NCBI RefSeq assembly: GCF_014171475.1
Contig: NZ_CP048817.1
Coordinates: 1,612,001 to 1,676,000 of the forward strand
Direction: 5' to 3'
Source: Sphingomonas sp. So64.6b
Lineage (GTDB): Bacteria > Pseudomonadota > Alphaproteobacteria > Sphingomonadales > Sphingomonadaceae
Length of the DNA stretch: 64,000 nt
The notes under the pieces are model-generated. The model worked only from the letters and a program-made list of their open reading frames with translations, did no database searches and was not told the DNA's origin. Both the position numbers and the translations under genes were made by a program. Positions 45,340 to 56,524 of this stretch are shown here, one piece after another; positions within the stretch are counted from its first letter, which is position 1, and the number at the start of each line of letters is the position of its first letter.

Positions 45340-46338
45340 TCACGCTGCCGCCTGGGTACGCCAGGGCGCGTAGAACTCCGCCAGCATCGCCTGCACCAAT
45401 TTGGGGTCGGCGATCTGATTGACGCGATTGCGGAACTCGGCCGATCCGTGCAGCCCGCGCGTGTACCAGCCGATATGCTTTCGCGCCATATTGACGCCGG
45501 TTTCGATACCATAGTGCGCGAGCATCTCGTCATAATGCTCTGCAATAACATCATATTGTTCGGAGATACTTGGATCGGGCAAGCGTCGGCCGCTGGCGAA
45601 CCATTCCATCACCTGGGCAAGCAGCCAGGGACGGCCATAAGCACCGCGGCCGATCATGATGCCATCGGCGCCGGATTGCTCCAGCGCCGCCTCGGCATCC
45701 TCGATCGAACAGATGTCGCCATTGGCGATCACCGGCACGCCCACCGCATCCTTCACCTGGCGGATGAACGCCCAGTCGGCGCTCCCCTTATACATCTGGT
45801 TACGCGTGCGGCCGTGCACGGTGATCAGCTTGACCCCAAGATCCTCGGCAATGCGTGACAATTCCGGCGCATTCAGGCTGTCGTGACACCAGCCCATGCG
45901 CATCTTGAGCGTCACCGGCACGCTGACCGCATCGACCACGCCCCGGATGATCGCGCCGGCATTGTCGAGATCGCGCATCAGCGCCGAACCGGCATCGCCA
46001 TTGGTCACCTTGCGCACCGGGCAGCCCATATTGATGTCGATGATCGCCGCCCCGCGATCCTCGCTCAGCTTCGCCGCCTCGCCCATTTCAAAAGGCGTGC
46101 AGCCGACCAATTGCATCGACACCGGATCCTCGATCGGATCCCAGGCCGCCTTTTGCAGTGACTGACGCGTCTCACGGATCGCGGCCTGGCTTGCGACCAT
46201 TTCAGTCACATTAAGGCCGGAGCCATAGCGGCGCACGAGTTTGCGGAACGGCATGTCGGTCACCCCGGTCATCGGCGCGAGCACGACGGGGCGTTCGATC
46301 CGGACAGGTCCGATCTGGATGGGGGAGAGGGTTTTCAT
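45340..46338 (-). CDS. dusB: tRNA-dihydrouridine synthase B
   Basis: A 332-residue FMN enzyme that reduces uridines of the tRNA D loop. Motifs: [17 protein letters not shown] (FMN site), [20 protein letters not shown] with the catalytic cysteine, KMRMGW, and [11 protein letters not shown]. The frame extends to 46386, but the ATG at 46336-46338 fits the family. It heads the ntrBC operon, the classical nifR3-ntrBC arrangement of alphaproteobacteria. Its promoter must lie in the 46339-46600 region. Confidence 0.96.
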
Positions 46339-46910
46339 GAATGTGCCTGAAAAACGGGCAGTAGTGGAAATGGGTGGGGATGGCAAGTTGGTGGTGCGGT
46401 GCGAAACCTGATGACCGGGATTGGGCCATTAGCCGACCGTCGGCTTTTGGTGCGCTGGGCGCACGGGCGGACTGCGTTGACGCTCGTCAGATCCATTCTT
46501 GCAGCAGTTGCAATAATTACCGCCTCACAGCGTTTTCGTTTGTGATCGCCGGTCTTCGTCGTCAGCGCTTCATATCTCGCCTTTCTCCTTAGAGCCGGAT
46601 TGATCGCGGGTCTGCTCTGATCACTTGATGTTCCCGCGGTTCCCGCCGCGGTTGAAGAGAAACATCATGTGGTGCAGCTACGTGACCGTCAGCCGAGCGC
46701 CCGACCGCTATGACAGAGAAAAGTGGACTGTCACCGTCACCGTAATCCGAACATGCCTTGCCCAAGGCAGCCCCCAATGAAGACGGTGTAATCCCGCCCT
46801 TTCATCCCGCTTCCCCGGTTGGGGTGAGGGATGCACCTTGGTACCATAAATTGGTCACGATGGCGTCCACCAATTGCGGTCGCCTGCAGCCACGCGATCC
46901 GCTGGACGAG
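46339..46910. other. Long intergenic region between dusB and the direct repeat
   Basis: About 570 bases with no coding frame I can support. It must hold the reverse-strand promoter of the dusB-ntr operon, which I could not pin down. A small symmetrical element CCGCGG-TTCCCG-CCGCGG lies near 46636-46653. Composition is mixed and slightly more AT-rich than the genes, as expected for decayed or regulatory DNA. Confidence 0.5.
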
Positions 46911-47178
46911 GCCAAATTCGCGACCGGGGATTCGGGACACGGTCCAACACCGGGACGGAAAACGCCAATCCATAACTAGCGCAGAAAGATGTATATCACA
47001 TTGATATTACAATATATTCCTCAATTTTTCTGGGCAGGAGGGGCCGAGGATATCGGACATTACCGGTGTTCCATATCTCTGCACCCATCGGCGATCCTTG
47101 GCTGCCACCGTCGCATTGTCCCGAATTCAAACGCCGCGCGGCGACTGCTACCGCACCGGCATGGAAAACCCCGCACCC
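46911..47178 (+). repeat. Direct repeat copy A at the left edge of the FixLJ cassette
   Basis: About 265 bases that align in the same orientation with 54983-55247, at roughly three quarters identity by eye, with few gaps. Shared landmarks in order: GCCAAAT, GGTCCAACA, CATTGATATT, ATATATTCC, ACCGGTGT, GCACCCATCGG, ATTCAAACGCCGC and GCATG. A dyad at 47049-47077 (GATAT to ATATC) is kept in both copies although its arms differ in sequence. It has no convincing coding content. Confidence 0.8.
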
Positions 47179-47273
47179 CATGCGAGCTGTCTTTCCACTG
47201 TTCGAATGAGGGCATCCCTAGGGCGGGAGCGACGGCGCGGGCAGCGACGGAAAGTAGGTAAATTGCGCGGTCG

Positions 47274-47299
47274 TCTGCGTAGTTTCCGACGCTGATCGC
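47274..47299 (+). promoter_or_regulatory. FixJ-box-like element upstream of phosphoketolase
   Basis: The 26 bases are 24/26 identical to 53324-53349, both placed 60-85 bases before a start codon. The core TGCGTAGTTTCC resembles the FixJ site I remember from the rhizobial fixK promoter (GTAAGTAGTTTCCC). With fixLJ encoded downstream in the same direction, autoregulation is likely. The match is from memory, not a matrix search. Confidence 0.55.
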
Positions 47300-47360
47300 G
47301 TGCGCGCGCGCCGCCTATGGCCGGCCTACAAGACAAGACACGACCCGACGGGACGCCGAT

Positions 47361-49760
47361 ATGACCGATATGACGATGGCCGCGATCGAGCGGTCCGGAA
47401 ACAACGCCGCCGGCCCACTGTCGCCCGACATGCTGCGGCGCATGCACGGCTATTGGCGCGCGGCGAACTATCTTTCGGTCGGGCAGATTTACCTCCGCGC
47501 CAATCCGCTGCTCGACCGGCCGCTGGAGATTGGCGACGTGAAAACGCGGCTGCTCGGCCATTGGGGCACGACGCCGGGGCTCAACCTGCTCTATGTTCAT
47601 CTCAATCGGCTTATCGTCGAACATGATCTCGATATGATCGCGGTCATCGGCCCGGGGCATGGCGGGCCGGGGATCGTGGCCAACACGTATCTTGAGGGGT
47701 CGTACACCGAAGCCTATCCCGCGATCGAGCGCAGCCGGGGCGGCATGGACCGGCTATTCCGGCAATTCTCCTGGCCGGGCGGTATCCCCAGCCACGTCGC
47801 TCCGGAAACACCCGGGTCGATCCATGAAGGTGGCGAACTGGGTTATTCGCTCGCCCATGCCTATGGCGCGGCGTTCGACAATCCCGACCTGATCGTCGCC
47901 TGCGTAATCGGCGATGGCGAGGCCGAGACGGGCGCGCTCGCGGCAAGCTGGCACAGCAACAAGTTCCTCAATCCCGCGCGCGACGGCACAGTGCTGCCGA
48001 TCCTGCACCTCAACGGCTTCAAGATCGCCAACCCGACCGTGCTGGCGCGCATCGGGCGCGAGGAGCTGACTGAATTGATGCATGGTTATGGCCATGAGCC
48101 ATTCTTCGTTACGGGCGACGATCCCGATATCGTGCATCAGTCGCTCGCGGCGACGCTCGACATGGTGGTGGAGCGGATCCGCGCGATTCAGGGCGCCGCG
48201 CGCAACGGCTTGTCGGACAATGGACGCCCGCGCTGGCCGATGATCGTGCTGGAAACGCCAAAGGGCTGGACCGGGCCGAAGGTCGTCGACGGCAAACCCG
48301 TCCAGGGCACCTGGCGCGCGCATCAGGTCCCGATCGCCGATTTCACCGATCCTGAGCACCTCCGCCAGCTTGAGCAATGGCTGCTCAGCTACCGCGCGGA
48401 TGAGCTGTTCGACGCCAACGGTAAGTTCCTTGATGACTATGCCTCGCTCGCGCCGACCGGGCACCGGCGAATGGGGTCGAACCCGCACGCCAATGGCGGT
48501 GCGCTGCTCGTGCCGCTGGCCCTGCCCGACTTTCGCGATCACGCGGTGACCGTGCCGGTGGCGGGCGGGGTGAAGGCAGCGGCGACCGCCGTGCTGGGCA
48601 ATTATCTCCGCGAGACCATGGCGCTCAACCTCGATGCCGCGAACTTCCGGCTGTTCGGCCCCGACGAGACCGCGTCCAACCGGCTGCAGGCGGTGTATGA
48701 GGTGACCGGCAAGGCGTGGATGGCGGAAACCGCGGCGGTGGACGAGCATCTCGATCGCGATGGCCGCGTCATGGAGGTGCTGAGCGAGCATCTCTGTCAG
48801 GGCTGGCTTGAGGGGTATCTGCTCACCGGGCGGCACGGGTTGTTCTCATGCTATGAAGCGTTCGTCCACATCGTCGATTCGATGCTCAACCAGCATGCCA
48901 AATGGTTGAAGGTCTCGGACAGTATCCCGTGGCGGCGGCCGATCGCGTCGCTCAACTATCTGCTCACCTCGCATGTCTGGCGGCAGGATCATAACGGGCT
49001 GTCGCATCAGGATCCTGGCTTCATCGATCATGTCGCCAACAAGACGGCGGGCGTGGCGCGGATCTATCTGCCGCCCGATGCCAATTGCCTGTTGTCGGTG
49101 GCGGATCATTGCCTGCGCAGCCGCAATTATGTGAACGTCATTGTCGCGGGCAAGCAGCCCGAATGGCAATGGCTCGGCATCGACGATGCAGTGCGCCATT
49201 GCACCGCGGGCGCCGGCGTGTGGAATTTCGCGAGCGATGCGGGCGAGCCCGACGTGGTAATGGCCTGTGCCGGTGACGTGCCGACGCTGGAGACGATGGC
49301 AGCGGTGATGCTGCTGCGCGAAAACATCCCCAATATCCGTATCCGCGTCGTCAACGTGGTCGACCTGATGGTGCTGCAACCGCAGTCCGAACATCCGCAC
49401 GGCCTCGACGATCGCGCGTTCGAGGCGTTGTTCACGGTCGACCGCCCGGTGATCTTCGCGTTCCATGGCTATCCGTCACTGGTCCACAAGCTGACCTACA
49501 AACGGCCCAACCATGCCAATATCCATGTTCGCGGATTCAAGGAGGAAGGCACCACGACCACGCCGTTCGACATGGTCGTGCTCAACGATCTCGATCGTTA
49601 TCGGCTGGCGCTCGATGCGGTCGAACGCGTGCCGCGGCTGCGCCACCTGATCCCCAATGCCCGCGCGCAATATTGGACCGCGATCGAACGCCACAAACTG
49701 TACATCGCCGAGCATGGCGACGACCTGCCAGAGATTAACGACTGGCGCTGGATCCGATGA
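47361..49760 (+). CDS. xfp: Phosphoketolase (xylulose/fructose 6-phosphate)
   Basis: A 799-residue thiamine diphosphate enzyme that splits xylulose 5-phosphate or fructose 6-phosphate with inorganic phosphate into acetyl phosphate and a shorter sugar phosphate, without redox loss. Motifs: YLRANPLL and [10 protein letters not shown] at the N terminus, GPGHGGPG, ThDP motif [18 protein letters not shown], and [13 protein letters not shown] plus [11 protein letters not shown] in the middle domain. Length is normal. It stands first in the cassette, and its stop overlaps the start of ackA, so acetyl phosphate is handed directly to acetate kinase. Confidence 0.97.
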
Positions 49761-50812
49761 AGGTCCTGACGCTGAACGAGGGATCGTCGTCGCTGAAATT
49801 TGGGCTGTATGAAGTCGGATTTGGCACGACGGAACAAGTATCGGCAGGCGAAGCCGACCCCGCCGACACGACACTCGACAAGATCGCGGATGCGCTGGGT
49901 GACGTGCGGCCGGACGCGGTCGGCCACCGCATCGTGCATGGCGGGCCGGATTTGTCCGCCCCCGTCCTGATCGACGCCGGGGTCATCGCCCGCCTTGAAC
50001 GTGCCACCGCCTTCGCGCCGCTACACGGCCCCGCATCGCTCGCCTTGATCGCGGCCGCGCAGGCCCGTTGGCGGGACCGGCCGCACATCGCATGCTTCGA
50101 CACCGGTTTTCATGCCGGCCTCCCCGATATCGCAGCGACGCTGCCGGTGCCCAGGGCGCTCCACGCATTTGGCATCCGTCGTTATGGTTTTCATGGCCTG
50201 TCCTGCCAGTCGATCCTCGACCAGCTCGGGGCCGGGCGCCCGGCGCGGCTGATCATCGCGCATCTCGGCAGCGGCGCCAGCATTACCGCCGTGCGGGATG
50301 GCCGATCGGTCGACACCAGCATGGGACTGACCCCGTCGGGCGGGGTCGTCATGGCGACACGTACCGGCGATCTCGATCCGGGTGTGTTGTTGTACCTGAT
50401 GCGCGAGCGAGGACTGGATGCGACCGCGCTGGAGGCGTTGATCGATCGTCAATCGGGGATGCGCGGCATATCGGGCATATCCGGCGATATCCGCGAATTG
50501 CGCGCGGCGGCGGGGGAAGACGCGAAGCTCGCCATCGCGATCTTCTGCCGATCGGCGGCAAAACAGATTGCCGCCATGATGGCTGTGCTCGGTGGGACGG
50601 ATATGATCGTCTTCACCGGCGGAATCGGCGAAAATGATGCGGAAGCCCGGGCCGATATCTGCCGCGATCTGGCCTGGGCCGGCGTGCCGGTCGCAAGCGA
50701 TCCCTATCCCGCGACGGTCGCTGTGCGCGTGATGCCGTCGCAAGAGGGCCATAGAATCGCGTCCGACGCTCGTGCCGTGCTGTGTGCGGCGTCGGGCAAG
50801 TCGCCGATTTGA
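49757..50812 (+). CDS. ackA: Acetate kinase
   Basis: A 351-residue ASKHA-fold kinase turning acetyl phosphate and ADP into acetate and ATP. Motifs: [59 protein letters not shown] and VFTGGIGEN. It is about 50 residues shorter than the enteric enzyme, with the loss spread over loops; the active-site motifs are all kept. Overlap with xfp (ATGA) shows a coupled pair. fixL begins 62 bases downstream on the same strand. Confidence 0.96.
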
Positions 50813-50874
50813 TAGGCATTTTCTGGCGTGGAGGTGGTACGCGATCGGCCCGGCGTTGCGCTGCATCGCCCGAT

Positions 50875-52419
50875 ATGAGGATTCGCGCGATCCCCCTGAA
50901 ACCCGGCATCCTGAATCCCGGCACCCTGGCGGAAGAGCTCGGTCTGTTGATCGACGGGGCGACCAACTACGCGATCTACATGCTCGACCCACAAGGGCAT
51001 GTGACGATTTGGAACCGCGGGGCGGAGCGCATCAAGGGGTGGACCCAGGCCGAAATCGTCGGCCGGCATTTCTCCGTTTTTTATCAGCCGCATGATATCG
51101 CGGCGGACAAACCCGCCGCCGATCTGGCGCGCGCCGCTGCCGAGGGCAGGCTGGAGGAAGAAAGCTGGCGCGTCCGCCGCGACGGCTCGGAATTCGTCGC
51201 TTGCGTCACGATGACGGCATTGCACGACGAGACCGGCGCGTTGCGCGGCTTCGGCAAGGTCGTGCGCGATCTTACCGAACAGAAAGCGGCGGAAACCGCG
51301 CTGGCACGGCGTGAAGAGCATCTGCGCTCCATCCTGGACACCGTGCCCGACGCGATGATCATCATTGACGAAGCCGGCACCATATCCTCGTTCAGCGCGG
51401 CGGCGGAGCGCTTGTTCGGCCATGTCGAAGCGGACGTGATCGGCCGCAATGTCTCGGTGCTGATGCCCGAACCGGATCGTGGCCGGCATGACGGCTACCT
51501 CGTCGATTACATGGGTGGCGGGGAGCGCAAGGTGATTGGGCGGGTGCGGCTGGTCACCGGCCTGCGCCGCAACGGCGAGACTTTCCCGCTCGAACTCGCG
51601 GTCGGGGAGGCATTGGTCGGTGACCGGCGCATCTTCACCGGCTTCATCCGCGACCTCACTGAGCGGCGGCGTACCGAACTTCGTTTGCAGGACCTGCAAT
51701 CCGAACTGATCCACGTCTCGCGGCTGAGCGCGATGGGCACGATGGCCTCCACGCTGGCGCACGAACTCAACCAGCCATTGACCGCCGTCACCAACTATCT
51801 CGAAGGCGCACGGGGCCTGCTCGATGATCCGACGCCCGAAACACTGGCGCTGGCACGCGAGGTGATGGAGGATGCGACGGCGCAGTCGATCCGCGCGGGC
51901 CATATCATCCGCCGATTGCGCGATTTCGTCGCTCATGGCGTGGTCAGCCAGCGGCCTGAGCCACTGAACCTGATGGTCGAGGAGGCCGCGCAGCTTGCAC
52001 TGATCGGCGCGCGCGCCGCCGGAATCCGGGTGGTGACGGAATATTCCCACGCGGATACCGTGGTGCGGGCCGATCGCGTCCAGATCCAGCAGGTGCTGGT
52101 CAACCTCATCCGCAATGCGATCCAGGCGATGGCGGACACCCCACGCCGTATCCTGACGATTGCGACACGCGCCGCCGACGATCATATGCAGGTGACCATC
52201 GCCGACACCGGCGGCGGTATCGCGCCCGGCGTCGCCGATCGTCTGTTCCAGGCATTCGCCTCGAGCAAGCCGGAAGGCATGGGTTTGGGCCTGTCGATCT
52301 GCCGTACGATCATCGAAGCGCATGGCGGCGCGATCTGGGCGAATGCGCTGCCGGACGACGGCACCGAATTCCACTTCACGCTCCTGCGCGCGGACCTGGA
52401 TGATATCGATGGCGGATGA
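50875..52419 (+). CDS. fixL: Heme-PAS oxygen-sensor histidine kinase FixL
   Basis: A 514-residue soluble kinase: PAS 1 (about 20-135), heme PAS 2 (about 145-265) and a HWE/HPK4-like kinase core. Key residues sit at a constant +5 from Bradyrhizobium FixL: heme ligand H205 (PDRGRHDGY, H200), oxygen-contact R225 (VRLVTGLRR, R220) and phospho-histidine H296 (LAHELNQPLTAV, H291). ATP site: DTGGGIAPG and GMGLGLSIC. No membrane segment. Start ATG 50875 has a weak ribosome site, so translation may rely on ackA. It overlaps fixJ. Confidence 0.95.
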   Translation: MRIRAIPLKPGILNPGTLAEELGLLIDGATNYAIYMLDPQGHVTIWNRGAERIKGWTQAEIVGRHFSVFYQPHDIAADKPAADLARAAAEGRLEEESWRVRRDGSEFVACVTMTALHDETGALRGFGKVVRDLTEQKAAETALARREEHLRSILDTVPDAMIIIDEAGTISSFSAAAERLFGHVEADVIGRNVSVLMPEPDRGRHDGYLVDYMGGGERKVIGRVRLVTGLRRNGETFPLELAVGEALVGDRRIFTGFIRDLTERRRTELRLQDLQSELIHVSRLSAMGTMASTLAHELNQPLTAVTNYLEGARGLLDDPTPETLALAREVMEDATAQSIRAGHIIRRLRDFVAHGVVSQRPEPLNLMVEEAAQLALIGARAAGIRVVTEYSHADTVVRADRVQIQQVLVNLIRNAIQAMADTPRRILTIATRAADDHMQVTIADTGGGIAPGVADRLFQAFASSKPEGMGLGLSICRTIIEAHGGAIWANALPDDGTEFHFTLLRADLDDIDGG

Positions 52420-53038
52420 GCGGCTTATCCATCTGATCGATGACGAAGACGCGATCCGCCGTTCCGCCAGTTTCCTGCTGCGCATGAGCGGGTTCCGGGT
52501 CGAAACCTATGCCTCCGGCGTCGCTTTCCTCGCAGTCGCCGCCAACGTAGAGCCGGGCTGCGTGCTGCTCGACATCCGCATGCCCGAACTCGACGGGCTG
52601 GAAGTACAGCGATTGCTCGGCGAGCGGGGCATCGCCCTGCCGATCGTGATGCTGACCGGCCATGGCGACATTGCCCTGTCGGTGCGCGCGATCAAGGCCG
52701 GCGCGGTCGACTTCCTCGAAAAGCCGTTCGAGAAGGACACCCTGCTGCGCGCCGTCGAGGAAGCATTCGAGCGGCTCGGCGCCGCACAGACCGGGCAGAT
52801 GGACGCCGCCGCGGCGACGTTGCGCCTCGCTGTGCTGACGCCGCGAGAGCGCGAGGTACTTGACGGCATGGTGCGCGGACAGGCCAACAAGATCACCGCC
52901 TATAAGCTCGGCATCGCCACCCGTACCGTGGAAGTCCATCGATCGAACCTGACGCACAAGCTCGGCGTACGCAGTATTTCCGACGTGTTGCGGATAGCGT
53001 TCGTCGCCGGTTTCGGCGGTCCACCAGCCGAGGGCTAG
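52409..53038 (+). CDS. fixJ: Response regulator FixJ
   Basis: A 209-residue NarL/FixJ-family activator. Receiver domain with acidic pair in HLIDDEDAIRR and phospho-aspartate in VLLDIRMPELDG, the switch region MLTGHGDIALSVRAIKAGA and K in FLEKPFE. The C-terminal LuxR-type helix-turn-helix reads LTPREREVLDGMVRG with NKITAYKLGIATRTVEVHR. The ATG at 52409 overlaps the fixL stop. It should be phosphorylated by FixL at low oxygen and bind the two GTTTCC elements of this cassette. No fixK or fixN genes occur in the window. Confidence 0.95.
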   Translation: MADERLIHLIDDEDAIRRSASFLLRMSGFRVETYASGVAFLAVAANVEPGCVLLDIRMPELDGLEVQRLLGERGIALPIVMLTGHGDIALSVRAIKAGAVDFLEKPFEKDTLLRAVEEAFERLGAAQTGQMDAAAATLRLAVLTPREREVLDGMVRGQANKITAYKLGIATRTVEVHRSNLTHKLGVRSISDVLRIAFVAGFGGPPAEG

Positions 53039-53217
53039 ACGAGCGCTCGGTTCGGCATCGTCAGATTTTTGCGCAACTCGGCCAATTGGGAACGATAGAG
53101 ATCGGCCAATCCCTCATGCGCTGCCCGGTCGCATTCGCCCGAAGAATGTTCGGCTTGGCGCAGCGTCTTGGCAAGACGGGTTTCGATATAGGTGATTTCG
53201 TTATGGCGCTTCGGCAT
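53035..53217 (-). CDS. 60-residue protein of unknown function
   Basis: A small helical, charged protein (MPKRHNEITYIETRLAKTL at the start, then EGLADLYRSQLAELRKNL) with one cysteine. ATG at 53215-53217 has a clear GAGGAG site seven bases upstream on its strand; the longer frame to 53397 is not supported. It is convergent with fixJ, overlapping four bases, and divergent from the GNAT gene. Function unknown; the shared intergenic region holds a FixJ-like element. Confidence 0.65.
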   Translation of the reverse strand: MPKRHNEITYIETRLAKTLRQAEHSSGECDRAAHEGLADLYRSQLAELRKNLTMPNRALV

Positions 53218-53323
53218 GGCGATCTCCTCATCGTTGAGCGATGAGCAGGCTCTAGCTGGTTTGATTTCGGACCGGCCGGGTCGGAATCTACTTAGGACCC
53301 AGACTCTGGAAATGCCCGCTCGA

Positions 53324-53349
53324 TCTACGTGGTTTCCGACGCTGATCGC
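53324..53349 (+). promoter_or_regulatory. FixJ-box-like element upstream of the GNAT gene
   Basis: Second copy of the 26-nt element (24/26 identical to 47274-47299), with core TACGTGGTTTCC. It lies 83 bases before the GNAT start and about 107 bases before the divergent 60-aa gene, so it could control either. The surrounding sequence is otherwise unrelated to copy one, which argues for selection on the element. Confidence 0.5.
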
Positions 53350-53432
53350 ACCCGGCTGCATTGGGTACATCCTTCTCGGGAAAGCCATTCCGATCAAGGA
53401 TATCCAGCGTGAATCAGACCAAGGCAGGTGAT

Positions 53433-53933
53433 ATGCTCACCACGCGAACCGGCTTCCGCTTCCACGTCCGGCCTGCTTTGTATGAGGACGATGGAACGCT
53501 GAAGGATTTCTTCTCGCATGTCACTCGCGCCGATCTGCGCTTCCGTTTCCTGACTGGCCTGAATGAAGTCGGCACCAGCCAGATCACCGCCCTCACTCAT
53601 CTCGACCATGATCATGCGGAAAACTTTCTCGCCTTCACTGCCGATGGATCGATGATGATCGGGACCGGCATGCTCGCGTGTGACGCGGCGTTCGAGCATG
53701 GCGAGGTCGCGATCGCGATCCGCGAGGATCACAAGCATCAGGGGATCAGCTGGGAATTGCTCGCCTATATCGCCCGCTATGCGGAGTCGAAGGGCGTGCA
53801 CACGCTGGAAGCGATCGAAAGCCGCGACAATCACCAGGCGATCGAACTGGAACGCGACATGGGCTTCACCGTCGCGCCCTATCCTGGCGACTCGACTCTG
53901 ATGCTCGTCAGCCGTCAGCTCGACCGGCGCTGA
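53433..53933 (+). CDS. GNAT acetyltransferase, Pat-like
   Basis: A 166-residue single GNAT domain. The N part (DDGTLKDFFSHVTRADLRFRF and ITALTHLDHDHAENFLAF) resembles the acetyltransferase domain of Pat/AcuA-type protein lysine acetyltransferases, where a similar LTxxDYDRE-type segment occurs. The acetyl-CoA site is in VAIAIREDHKHQGISWELL; RDNHQAIELERDMGF closes the fold. ATG 53433 is preferred over an upstream TTG. Near acetate kinase and phosphoketolase, a role in acetylating enzymes of acetyl metabolism is attractive, but the target is unknown. Confidence 0.8.
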   Translation: MLTTRTGFRFHVRPALYEDDGTLKDFFSHVTRADLRFRFLTGLNEVGTSQITALTHLDHDHAENFLAFTADGSMMIGTGMLACDAAFEHGEVAIAIREDHKHQGISWELLAYIARYAESKGVHTLEAIESRDNHQAIELERDMGFTVAPYPGDSTLMLVSRQLDRR

Positions 53934-53936
53934 TCG

Positions 53937-54923
53937 GTGATCGGAAAACATGCGCTGTTGCGGTACGCGGCCGTGGTCGCGCTGATGGGAATGAATACAG
54001 CTGCGACCGCGCAAACGCCGCCAGCGTCGAGCGATGGCGCGGTCGAAGCGCTCAAGCCCGGCGAATTCCTGTGGGCACCGGACATCGCGCCGGCCGGGCC
54101 TGTGACGATGATCGTCGGTCTCAAGACGCAGCGCGCCTATCTTTATCGCAATGGCCTCCCGATCGGCGTTTCGACGATATCGAGCGGTCGGCCGGGTTAT
54201 CGAACCCCGACCGGCATATTTACGATCCTGCAGAAAGACGCGGACCACACATCCAATCTCTACAAGGATGCACCGATGCCGTTCATGCAGCGGCTGACCT
54301 GGGGCGGGATCGCATTACACGCCGGCCATCTGCCCGGTTATCCCGATTCTCACGGCTGTGTGCGGCTGCCCCTGGCGTTTGCCAAACTGTTGTTCGGCGT
54401 CACTCGCCTGGGTCTCACCGTCATTATCACCGACGACGCTGAGGCGCCGGTGATATCGTCCGCACCGGGTATCATCGCCGCTGAACCGGATGACACGCAT
54501 CAACCGCCCGAACATTATACTTGGCGGCCGGACAGGTCCCCCGCCGGCCCGATATCGATCGTCGTCAGCGGCCGAGACCGTCGCGTCGTTGTACTGCGAA
54601 ATGGCATAGAGATCGGATCCGCGGCGATCACCATAGATGGTCCGGTTGACAGAACGGAGGCCTTCACGCTGAAAAGCATCGATTCGGCTGGCATCCACTG
54701 GTTGAGGCTACCGCTACCCGGCAACCCAAAGCCGACTGCGCCAGAACTTACCCCCATTGAGCGGGGCCGAGCGCATCTTCCCGAGACCTTTCGCGTTCTG
54801 CTCGACGGTATCCTGAGCCCAGGCACCACGTTGCTGGTCACGCGCGACTCACTCCGTAGCAGCGGGACAGGCACGAATATCGTTGTGCTGACGGCGGGCG
54901 ACAAAGGCACTGCAGCTCCTTAG
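53937..54923 (+). CDS. L,D-transpeptidase (YkuD) with degenerate second repeat
   Basis: A 328-residue exported protein (signal peptide 1-25). Residues about 45-170 form a YkuD domain with the active-site motif HAGHLPGYPDSHGCVRLP, whose cysteine makes 3-3 peptidoglycan cross-links or attaches proteins. Residues about 195-235 repeat the start of the domain: RPDRSPAGPISIVV against APDIAPAGPVTMIV, and VLRNGIEIGSAAI against LYRNGLPIGVSTI. The second copy lacks the catalytic motif. GTG start three bases after the GNAT stop, so both are co-transcribed. Confidence 0.9.
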   Translation: MIGKHALLRYAAVVALMGMNTAATAQTPPASSDGAVEALKPGEFLWAPDIAPAGPVTMIVGLKTQRAYLYRNGLPIGVSTISSGRPGYRTPTGIFTILQKDADHTSNLYKDAPMPFMQRLTWGGIALHAGHLPGYPDSHGCVRLPLAFAKLLFGVTRLGLTVIITDDAEAPVISSAPGIIAAEPDDTHQPPEHYTWRPDRSPAGPISIVVSGRDRRVVVLRNGIEIGSAAITIDGPVDRTEAFTLKSIDSAGIHWLRLPLPGNPKPTAPELTPIERGRAHLPETFRVLLDGILSPGTTLLVTRDSLRSSGTGTNIVVLTAGDKGTAAP

Positions 54924-54982
54924 GCCGGCTGTGAAGGTCTGCTTTAGAGAGCGTTTCAGAGCGGCAACAGCGGCCGAACGAT

Positions 54983-55247
54983 GCCAAATCCGCGACCGGA
55001 GATTCGTTACATGGTCCAACATCGGAACGACGAACGTCAATCCGGGACCAGCGCAGGACAAGGAATATCATATTGATATTGCGATATATTCCAAGCCTTT
55101 CTGCGCCGGGCTGGCCAAGGATATGCAACACGACCGGTGTAACATATCTCCGCACCCATCGGTCGTCCTTGCCGCCACCGCCGCTATCCCAGGATTCAAA
55201 CGCCGCCCGGCAACCGTTATCGCTTCGGCATGAAGATACCCGCACCG
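54983..55247 (+). repeat. Direct repeat copy B at the right edge of the FixLJ cassette
   Basis: Same orientation as copy A at 46911-47178 and about 8 kb away. Shared landmarks are in the same order. The dyad at 55120-55148 (GATATG to CATATC with inner ACAC/GTGT) matches the position of the dyad in copy A but uses partly different pairs, as expected for a conserved structure. The copy fills most of the 407-base gap between the L,D-transpeptidase gene and ispDF; I see no other content in that gap. Confidence 0.8.
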
Positions 55248-55330: not shown

Positions 55331-56524
55331 ATGACGGTCAGTCCTGCCTCCCGCCCCGCCTCACCTCGCCCCGCCCGACCTCACATTGCCGCGATCATCG
55401 TCGCTGCTGGCCAGGGCCTGCGCAGTGGTGGCGACGGCCCGAAGCAGTTCGCACCCGTCGCGGGCAAGCCGATGATTGCGCACAGCCATGCCACGCTCGA
55501 CGCGCATCCGGCGATCGACCGGGTGATCGTCGTGATCGGCGACGGTCAGGATGCCGAACTCGACAAGGCGCTCGGCCTGGTCGAGCGGGTGACCGGTGGC
55601 GCCACCCGACGCCTGTCGGTTCTGGCGGGGCTGGAGCATCTCGCCGAAACCGACATCGATCGCGTGCTGATCCACGATGCCGCCCGCCCTTTCCTGCCCG
55701 TGGCGGTGATCGATCGCCTGCTCGCCGCGCTGGACGAGGATGCCGGCGCGGTTCCCGCCCTGCCCGTCGCCGACACGCTTGCGCGCGGCATGGAGGTGCT
55801 TGGCGCGGGCGTTTCGCGCGACGGCCTGTTCCGTATCCAGACGCCTCAGGCGTTCCGCTTCGACGCGATCCTCGCCGCACATCGCGGCTGGAGCGGCGAC
55901 GAACCCACCGACGACGCGCAGATGCTGCGTAAATCAGGAGCGGCCGTGGCTTTGGTCGAAGGCGACACGATGCTCGAAAAAGTGACTTATCCGGCCGATT
56001 TCGCGAGTGCCGAGGCGCGTCATGCCGCAACGATGCGCGTGCGCAGCGCAAGCGGTTATGACGTCCATCGCCTGGCCGAAGGTGAAGAATTATGGCTAGG
56101 TGGCGTCCTGATCCCGCACGACAAGGGCCTGTCGGGACATAGCGATGCCGATGTCGCGCTCCACGCGATCACCGATGCCTTGCTCGGCACGATTGCCGCG
56201 GGCGATATCGGCACGCACTTCCCGCCCAGCGACCCGCAGTGGCGCGGCGCGGATTCGGCGCAGTTCCTGGAATACGCCGCCGCGCTGATCCGGGAACGTG
56301 GCGGCATCATCGATTTTATCGACCTGACGATCATTTGCGAGGCACCGAAGATCGGCCCGCACCGCGCGGCGATGCGCGACCGCGTCGCGGCGCTGTTGCG
56401 GCTCACCGCCGGCCAGATTAGCATCAAGGCAACGACCACCGAGCGTCTCGGCTTCACCGGACGCGGCGAAGGCATCGCCGCGCAGGCGATCGCGACGATC
56501 AGGATCACGGGGGATGCACTATGA
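55331..56524 (+). CDS. ispDF: Bifunctional IspD/IspF of the MEP pathway
   Basis: A 397-residue fusion. The IspD part (about 17-235) has AAIIVAAGQGLRSGGDGPKQF, HDAARPFLP and the cytidylyltransferase strands; it makes CDP-ME. The IspF part (about 240-397) has SGYDVHRLAEGEELWLGG, LSGHSDADVALHAITDALLG and ATTTERLGFTGRGEGIAAQA; it makes the cyclic diphosphate. The kinase step (IspE) is between them and is not in the window. Fusion is common in alphaproteobacteria. Its stop overlaps the next gene (ATGA). Confidence 0.97.
   Translation: MTVSPASRPASPRPARPHIAAIIVAAGQGLRSGGDGPKQFAPVAGKPMIAHSHATLDAHPAIDRVIVVIGDGQDAELDKALGLVERVTGGATRRLSVLAGLEHLAETDIDRVLIHDAARPFLPVAVIDRLLAALDEDAGAVPALPVADTLARGMEVLGAGVSRDGLFRIQTPQAFRFDAILAAHRGWSGDEPTDDAQMLRKSGAAVALVEGDTMLEKVTYPADFASAEARHAATMRVRSASGYDVHRLAEGEELWLGGVLIPHDKGLSGHSDADVALHAITDALLGTIAAGDIGTHFPPSDPQWRGADSAQFLEYAAALIRERGGIIDFIDLTIICEAPKIGPHRAAMRDRVAALLRLTAGQISIKATTTERLGFTGRGEGIAAQAIATIRITGDAL

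Follow-up and report, generated by a model that had tools for sequence, protein, structure and literature searches.

A FixLJ-phosphoketolase unit at the dusB–ispDF junction of a Sphingomonas genome and its putative FixJ-type promoters

What is a block encoding a phosphoketolase (xfp), an acetate kinase (ackA), a heme-PAS kinase (fixL), FixJ, a 60-aa protein, a GNAT-type acetyltransferase and an L,D-transpeptidase (LDT) doing between the core genes dusB and ispDF of Sphingomonas sp. So64.6b, and what controls it? We addressed this question in a stretch of 64,000 nucleotides (contig NZ_CP048817.1, positions 1,612,001–1,676,000; hereafter the window), in which a preliminary description had listed these genes; each was found where it had been placed. 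The likely answer is that a FixLJ regulon of 7.8 kb, complete in itself, entered the dusB–ispDF junction by insertion, with FixJ predicted to drive both xfp-ackA-fixLJ and GNAT-LDT. This answer builds on features present in the sequence itself, namely the gene content and borders of the unit (hereafter the cassette), a repeat (R) on both sides of it, a homologous unit in a congener (G062) and a box followed by a TA dinucleotide upstream of both xfp and the GNAT gene.

Two promoter regions with a common box

The regions upstream of xfp and of the GNAT gene have in common the 23-mer TRCGTRGTTTCCGACGCTGATCG, which was derived from both places and was found in none of the shuffled windows. The core TRCGTRGTTTCCG occurs at nine sites in the 5.06-Mb genome, against one for the reversed sequence; two of the nine lie in the cassette and seven within 23 kb (C1:1409126–1432192) of a genomic island described below. 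A TA starts 27–29 nt after the box at 8/9 of these sites and at 30/51 unique sites from other sphingomonads, the best other three-wide TA window accounting for 7 of all 60 sites, and the combined promoter pattern matches 51 times in these sphingomonad loci versus twice when reversed. When a scoring matrix was trained on 42 relatives' sites, with this genome and G062 left out, the sites at 47276 (34.3) and 53326 (23.3) ranked first and second in the 64 kb, the maximum in ten shuffled windows being 16.3. Assuming a −10 element in the customary position, the box would lie at roughly −52 to −40. It has GTAGTTTCC in common with the FixJ consensus GTAGTTTCCC obtained by in vitro selection (SELEX); GTAGTTTCCC and GTAMGTAG are quoted as selected sites (PMC4999443). 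A literature search for GTAGTTTCC had no FixJ title among the matches listed. No FNR/FixK-type site (TTGAN6TCAA, ≤1 mismatch) was found in the two cassette promoter regions, and none of the six sigma-70-like sites detected (2.0 ± 1.3 expected by chance) coincides with either FixJ-type promoter.

Two weaker boxes point left (Table 1). The degenerate one upstream of xfp is possibly the orphan half of a divergent promoter, its counterpart in G062 scoring 18.2 and facing an alternative-oxidase gene, while the one upstream of the 60-aa open reading frame (ORF) is identical in G062, spacing included.

The association between the box and FixL was examined in 201 congeneric genomes using the promoter pattern CGTAGTTYCCGAN{25,27}TA, which was present in 30 of them (81 sites, up to 8 each). 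FixL (E ≤ 1e-120) was detected in 95 of the 201 genomes, comprising 28/30 with the pattern and 67/171 without it (Fisher 1.1e-8), and FixL of ≥60% identity, a limit picked after the hits were seen, in 27/30 versus 9/171 (Fisher 1.4e-22). Among the best 80 of the xfp loci listed (22 titled as sphingomonads and 58 other), matches of >100 bits to both fixL and fixJ were present in 13/22 sphingomonad loci and 0/58 others, and a FixJ-type score of ≥16 within 500 bp upstream, computed with a matrix from the nine own sites, in 9/22 and 0/58, respectively. FNR/FixK-type sites within 500 bp of xfp had the opposite distribution (1/22 sphingomonad loci, 15/58 others). Boxes matching TGAGTAGTTTCCGA were also seen near oleate hydratase and xfp on plasmid p_2 of Phyllobacterium sp. 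628 (L140; positions 7152, 8685 and 8764), followed by a TA after about 27 nt, so that the promoter rule may extend past the sphingomonads.

The xfp/ackA and fixL/fixJ pairs each overlap by a few bases, and the 62-bp gap between ackA and fixL has no terminator-like site listed inside it, such sites being at chance level (5 found, 5.0 expected). These overlaps and short gaps make xfp-ackA-fixL-fixJ, GNAT-LDT and a minus-strand 60-aa ORF the likely transcripts. The last is probably a gene, being 97% identical in G062 and represented by three more protein clusters at 68–82% identity.

Table 1 Features of the cassette and its borders, with positions in the window
Feature	Position	Strand	Remark
Candidate FixJ-type promoter of xfp	47276–47317	+	box TGCGTAGTTTCCG at 47276–47288, TA at 47316–47317
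Candidate FixJ-type promoter of GNAT-LDT	53326–53367	+	box TACGTGGTTTCCG at 53326–53338, TA at 53366–53367
Degenerate FixJ-type box	47219–47260	−	TACCTACTTTCCG at 47248–47260, TA offset 28, points left
Weak FixJ-type box	53253–53294	−	TAAGTAGATTCCG at 53282–53294, TA offset 28, upstream of 60-aa ORF
Inserted unit (cassette)	47178–54977	+	BLAST limits of G062 homology, 92.5% over 7,800 columns
Repeat R, left copy	46898–47177	+	left flank orthologous to left flank of the single R of G062
Repeat R, right copy	54973–55246	+	upstream of ispDF; right flank orthologous to right flank of the single R of G062
xfp, phosphoketolase, 799 aa	47361–49760	+	Pfam/NCBIfam
ackA, short acetate kinase, 351 aa	49757–50812	+	start overlaps xfp stop
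fixL, two-PAS histidine kinase	50875–52419	+	heme-pocket His and R220-position Arg retained
fixJ, REC and LuxR-type helix-turn-helix (HTH)	52409–53038	+	start overlaps fixL stop
60-aa ORF	53035–53217	−	convergent with fixJ; no Pfam match
GNAT, single domain, 166 aa	53433–53933	+	resembles the GNAT portion of a large protein acetyltransferase
YkuD-type LDT, 328 aa	53937–54923	+	3 bp past GNAT
dusB	45340–46386	−	left neighbour of the block
ispDF	55331–56524	+	right neighbour of the block

Sensor, regulator and a second FixLJ module

The kinase has HisKA and HATPase domains, lies adjacent to fixJ and has NF041777 (sensor protein FixL, equivalog) as its best NCBIfam match. In an alignment of its second PAS domain to FixL of Bradyrhizobium (BjFixL), the RHD histidine and the arginine at position R220 are kept; we take this His to be the proximal heme ligand, H200 of BjFixL. 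The cassette FixL therefore likely senses oxygen, as judged from this alignment. Across the 22 distinct FixL rows compared, the heme His is retained in 20. The two that lack it, from S. echinoides (L107) and a metagenome-assembled genome (L125), are FixL homologs encoded near xfp, and their signal may not be oxygen. FixJ, searched as the protein starting at 52412 (minus the first Met), has a GerE HTH and a REC phospho-Asp that aligns to solved FixJ, and its best NCBIfam match is the equivalog NF006900.

Among the enzymes, the phosphoketolase contains XFP_N, XFP and XFP_C at full length (NF003619, 1411 bits; cut-off 962), whereas the short acetate kinase passes PF00871 (288.5 bits against 22) and narrowly misses TIGR00016 (278.5 vs 293.4 bits). 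Among solved structures, the GNAT protein best matches 9it0, an 886-aa 'protein acetyltransferase' presumably of PatZ type, in whose C-terminal part the match lies. Pat enzymes of this type combine an acyl-CoA-synthetase-like domain with a GNAT domain, and since the cassette protein is the 166-aa domain alone, it is a Pat-like GNAT and not Pat: the resemblance noted in the preliminary description holds, but the acyl-CoA-synthetase-like part of a full Pat is missing.

In the mechanism that we propose, falling oxygen would lead heme-FixL to phosphorylate FixJ, and phosphorylated FixJ would bind the TRCGTRGTTTCCG box (roughly −52 to −40), activating xfp-ackA-fixL-fixJ and GNAT-LDT, with the 60-aa ORF possibly forming a third transcript. 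Phosphoketolase would then convert sugar phosphates to acetyl phosphate, and acetate kinase would yield ATP and acetate when respiration is limited. These two enzymes together provide ATP and acetate without a redox step. FixJ would thus replace the FixK/FNR step that certain other proteobacteria have upstream of xfp, and positive feedback would follow because fixLJ lies in the operon that FixJ is predicted to drive. FixLJ control of xfp-ackA had been suggested beforehand; the FixJ-type boxes, their fixed TA spacing and a pattern that follows the FixL clade make direct FixJ control of both xfp-ackA and GNAT-LDT a well-supported prediction, while acetylation and wall remodelling as outputs are speculation.

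The cassette is self-contained, as had been described, but it is not the only FixLJ/xfp module of this genome. A larger island at about C1:1.409–1.442 Mb encodes VIT1, two flavodoxin-fold proteins, a GNAT, an alternative oxidase, an L,D-transpeptidase, xfp-ackA and a second fixLJ, together with three BON proteins, GH130, a lysylphosphatidylglycerol-synthase-like protein, three P-type ATPases, oleate hydratase and alcohol dehydrogenase; YkuD proteins recur in related islands. The island and cassette proteins are 64% (FixL) and 60% (FixJ) identical. Because the second FixJ is very similar to the cassette FixJ in its HTH region and the island has the same boxes, targets are probably common to both FixLJ pairs. 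This raises an alternative in which the cassette FixLJ works but is redundant, both loci being run by the island FixLJ and the cassette merely restoring phosphoketolase for a broken island xfp, which lies in two frames (residues 7–248 and 247–799, joining near residue 248; L014:13149–15526, corresponding to G000 C1:1415149–1417526). That split may be either a real break or an assembly or sequencing error. The cassette fixLJ, moreover, is open and 95–97% identical in G062 and thus seemingly under constraint, so that, despite the shared box and the similar HTHs, we regard redundancy as unlikely, though deserving of serious consideration.

Several observations weigh against direct FixJ control. 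FixL and FixJ fall short of the cut-offs of their equivalog families (496.5 bits against 850 and 230.8 bits against 255, respectively), and the position of R206 in BjFixL is occupied by Asp in the cassette FixL, for which reason its oxygen affinity may differ. The box is sharp only if exact: at one mismatch YRCGTRGTTTCCS has 73 genome matches versus 79 when reversed, and a tenth exact match to YRCGTRGTTTCCS lies at C1:3845049, outside both loci. The two left-facing boxes, 53294(−) (14.0) and 47260(−) (11.4), are within the score range of shuffled sequence. In the genus survey, the reversed pattern hits more genomes (49, with 54 sites and ≤2 each) than the forward one (30) and is itself weakly associated with FixL (30/49 vs 65/152, p 0.018), and the Fisher values overstate independence because the genomes are related. 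Nine genomes with FixL of ≥60% identity are without a pattern match, two pattern-bearing genomes (G006 and G019) have no FixL match at E ≤ 1e-120, and only 9 of the 22 sphingomonad xfp loci reach the upstream score of ≥16. Finally, of the four plasmid stretches that carry FixLJ-like genes, L213, L215 and L216 have no box, and L214 has three, against one match for the reversed pattern.

The sub-threshold family scores and the two genomes without a close FixL would fit a different NarL/LuxR-type response regulator as the owner of the boxes, with fixLJ a mere neighbour and a signal other than oxygen, and FixJ binding to the boxes is itself a prediction from sequence. Such a regulator would have to account for the confinement of all nine exact TRCGTRGTTTCCG sites to the two loci that hold fixLJ, for a pattern that tracks the ≥60% FixL clade across the 201 genomes, for the SELEX FixJ core within the box and for the heme His conserved in the cassette FixL, and we therefore consider it improbable.

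Insertion at the dusB–ispDF junction

The preliminary description was correct in recognising an 8-kb block, but the ends that it gave run through two repeats that it did not mention, and the unit proper is bounded as in Table 1. The two R copies are direct repeats of ~275 bp with 76% identity (BLAST), and the cassette sits between two copies of a sequence that is single in G062. In a three-way alignment, identities are 71.8% (left–right), 76.3% (left–G062) and 75.5% (right–G062); given this divergence the repeats are not young, and we claim neither a recent event nor a mechanism. A recent target-site duplication was ruled out, as the copies differ by 22–28% and, with the G062 copy included, give a star-shaped relationship. 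Integration by a single crossover should have produced mosaic R copies, and a windowed comparison revealed no clear mosaic; nor is R a high-copy element, a DNA search of the genome returning just two full copies and a 31-bp match. No transposase or integrase was found in the unit, its six larger genes belonging to other families and the 60-aa ORF having no Pfam match. An imperfect palindrome of ~32 bp in the right R copy (55120–55151) has at least 21 short scattered matches in G062, a lower bound since 40 of 309 candidates were scored; three pairs of these matches lie 79–115 bp apart, and the palindrome resembles an operator or a dispersed repeat of palindromic type.

The junction was surveyed in 41 genomes (this genome and 40 relatives). 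Both dusB and ispDF were found in 39/41, sharing one contig in 38 and divergent in all 38; they lie on different contigs in G033, and G007 and G020 gave no match. The interval between the matched ends is 41–754 bp in 35/38 genomes, which represent 13 of 15 sampled genera, and is longer in G027 (1,234 bp), G036 (4,098 bp) and this genome (8,944 bp). By contrast, xfp is patchy (11/41 genomes, G037 being a weak partial match), and neither dusB nor ispDF was present in the 10 annotated xfp stretches of relatives. The short junction in relatives, together with the location of the G062 copy elsewhere, indicates that the block is an insertion; the comparison proposed in the preliminary description thus contradicts the idea of a block that is ancestral and universal at this locus.

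In G062, the unit lies beside an alternative-oxidase gene with gene order unchanged and both boxes present. Protein identities are 97% (xfp), 87% (ackA), 95% (fixL), 97% (fixJ), 97% (60-aa protein), 98% (GNAT) and 94% (LDT). The dusB–ispDF site of G062 itself has one R copy in a 3.45-kb interval carrying different cargo (a BD-FAE/esterase-like gene and more ORFs), and with the 4.1-kb interval of G036 in view, this junction is possibly a hot spot for insertions. Four-fold sites differ from those of G062 at 202/1308 positions in the cassette and at 259/909 in five neighbouring genes (42799−, over 229 aa only, 44262−, dusB, ispDF and 58009−, with 56649−, 58069+, 56514+ and 57755+ left out as doubtful ORFs). 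This suggests that the cassette was exchanged later than the backbone, a tentative reading, since the divergence of ackA taken by itself (25%) equals that of the background. In phylogenetic trees, the window xfp (36 rows, residues 247–799) and FixL (23 rows) pair with those of G062 with 100% support, apart from the island copies of the same genome, and the cassette is accordingly a distinct lineage and not a fresh island copy. That the block is an old resident deleted in relatives is very improbable: R copies that diverge from each other about as much as from the G062 copy would suit an old repeat, but the short divergent junction across genera, the position of the G062 unit elsewhere, the doubling of R at the unit borders and the lower four-fold divergence of the cassette all argue against it.

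Homologs of FixL (E ≤ 1e-60) were detected on 183 plasmid records, 123 of them typed conjugative, and the four plasmid stretches examined carry related gene sets, so that mobility of modules of this kind comes as no surprise. On plasmid pHMP9 of Sphingomonas sp. HMP9 (L213, 8911–14997), typed mobilizable, a PAS-domain protein and a response regulator are encoded just upstream of xfp-ackA, with a transposase in between and no box of the cassette type. Plasmid islands of S. paeninsulae, S. panacis and Sphingobium sp. TKS resemble the cassette in carrying FixLJ-type pairs, the plasmids being typed conjugative, and sphingomonad plasmid islands variously hold acetate kinase, GNAT, VIT, universal stress, BON and oleate hydratase genes; the compact xfp-ackA-fixLJ-GNAT-LDT order was, however, absent from the stretches seen, and among these three plasmids boxes were found in that of S. 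paeninsulae only. More tentatively, and with slightly less than even confidence, we propose a transferable regulon with its own positive feedback loop, in which oxygen sensor, response regulator, target promoters and fermentation enzymes travel jointly in 7.8 kb excised from a larger island, the possible left-facing orphan promoter being a remnant at its edge; phosphoketolase fermentation in Sphingomonas would thereby have passed from FixK/FNR to direct FixJ control and would spread without dependence on the host network.

Relation to known FixLJ systems

Sphingomonads are usually regarded as strict aerobes, and FixJ is mainly known as a switch for fixK and nifA. As far as the available parts of the published studies go, the closest counterpart is Bradyrhizobium diazoefficiens, which likewise has the FixLJ family upstream and an xfp-ackA operon (bll2518-bll2517); phosphoketolase and acetate kinase are ~10-fold or more lower in a fixK2 deletion, a FixK2-type motif is listed upstream, and fixK2 is induced by FixLJ (PMC9104804). 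Oleate hydratase is listed with them and is likewise lowered in the deletion, and the phosphoketolase also appears in a microoxia table (PMC6515984). The difference lies in the box, which is of FixK2 type in B. diazoefficiens, whereas in the cassette FixJ-type boxes precede xfp, no FixK-type box was seen and fixLJ is inside the unit. Since Bradyrhizobium xfp-ackA depends on FixLJ-induced FixK2, the low-oxygen physiology of xfp-ackA is not new.

Similarly, the phosphoketolase of Rhodopseudomonas palustris TIE-1 (Rpal_1869) falls within the FixLJ–FixK cascade as a predicted FixK target, FixK and not FixJ being the proposed direct regulator; in the section available, its response in the fixK mutant is mixed, with a clear fall in 1/6 columns (PMC3050613). 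A phosphoketolase of the predicted FixK regulon also appears in the excerpt available from a comparative study (PMC2908626). The FixJ regulon of Rhizobiales and Caulobacterales has FixJ sites with the GTAGTTTCCC core, like the candidate boxes of the cassette, but the targets conserved in it are fixK and a small number of further genes. In the same 50-genome survey, the part on FixLJ gives orthologs in Caulobacterales and Rhizobiales and names no sphingomonad, and FnrN is the sole FnrN/FixK-type regulator that the survey gives for Sphingomonadales (PMC4999443). From sphingomonads, FixLJ is mentioned on Sphingobium hydrophobicum plasmids, without targets in the passages available (PMC6783567), and fixJKL genes are mentioned in the corresponding extract for S. 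sediminicola (PMC9861922). The preliminary description knew of no account of FixLJ controlling a phosphoketolase in sphingomonads, and we likewise found no report of such FixJ control in the partial texts retrieved by a search with most subscription journals outside its scope. What looks new is the predicted direct FixJ control inside a movable unit.

Part of the genus appears to use FixJ directly for a low-oxygen programme, with a strict layout of box and TA 27–29 nt downstream, and with this promoter rule the regulon can be predicted from further Sphingomonas genomes. The cassette illustrates the joint movement of a sensor and its targets, which bears on the evolution of regulatory networks, and it offers a compact, putatively oxygen-controlled module for study.

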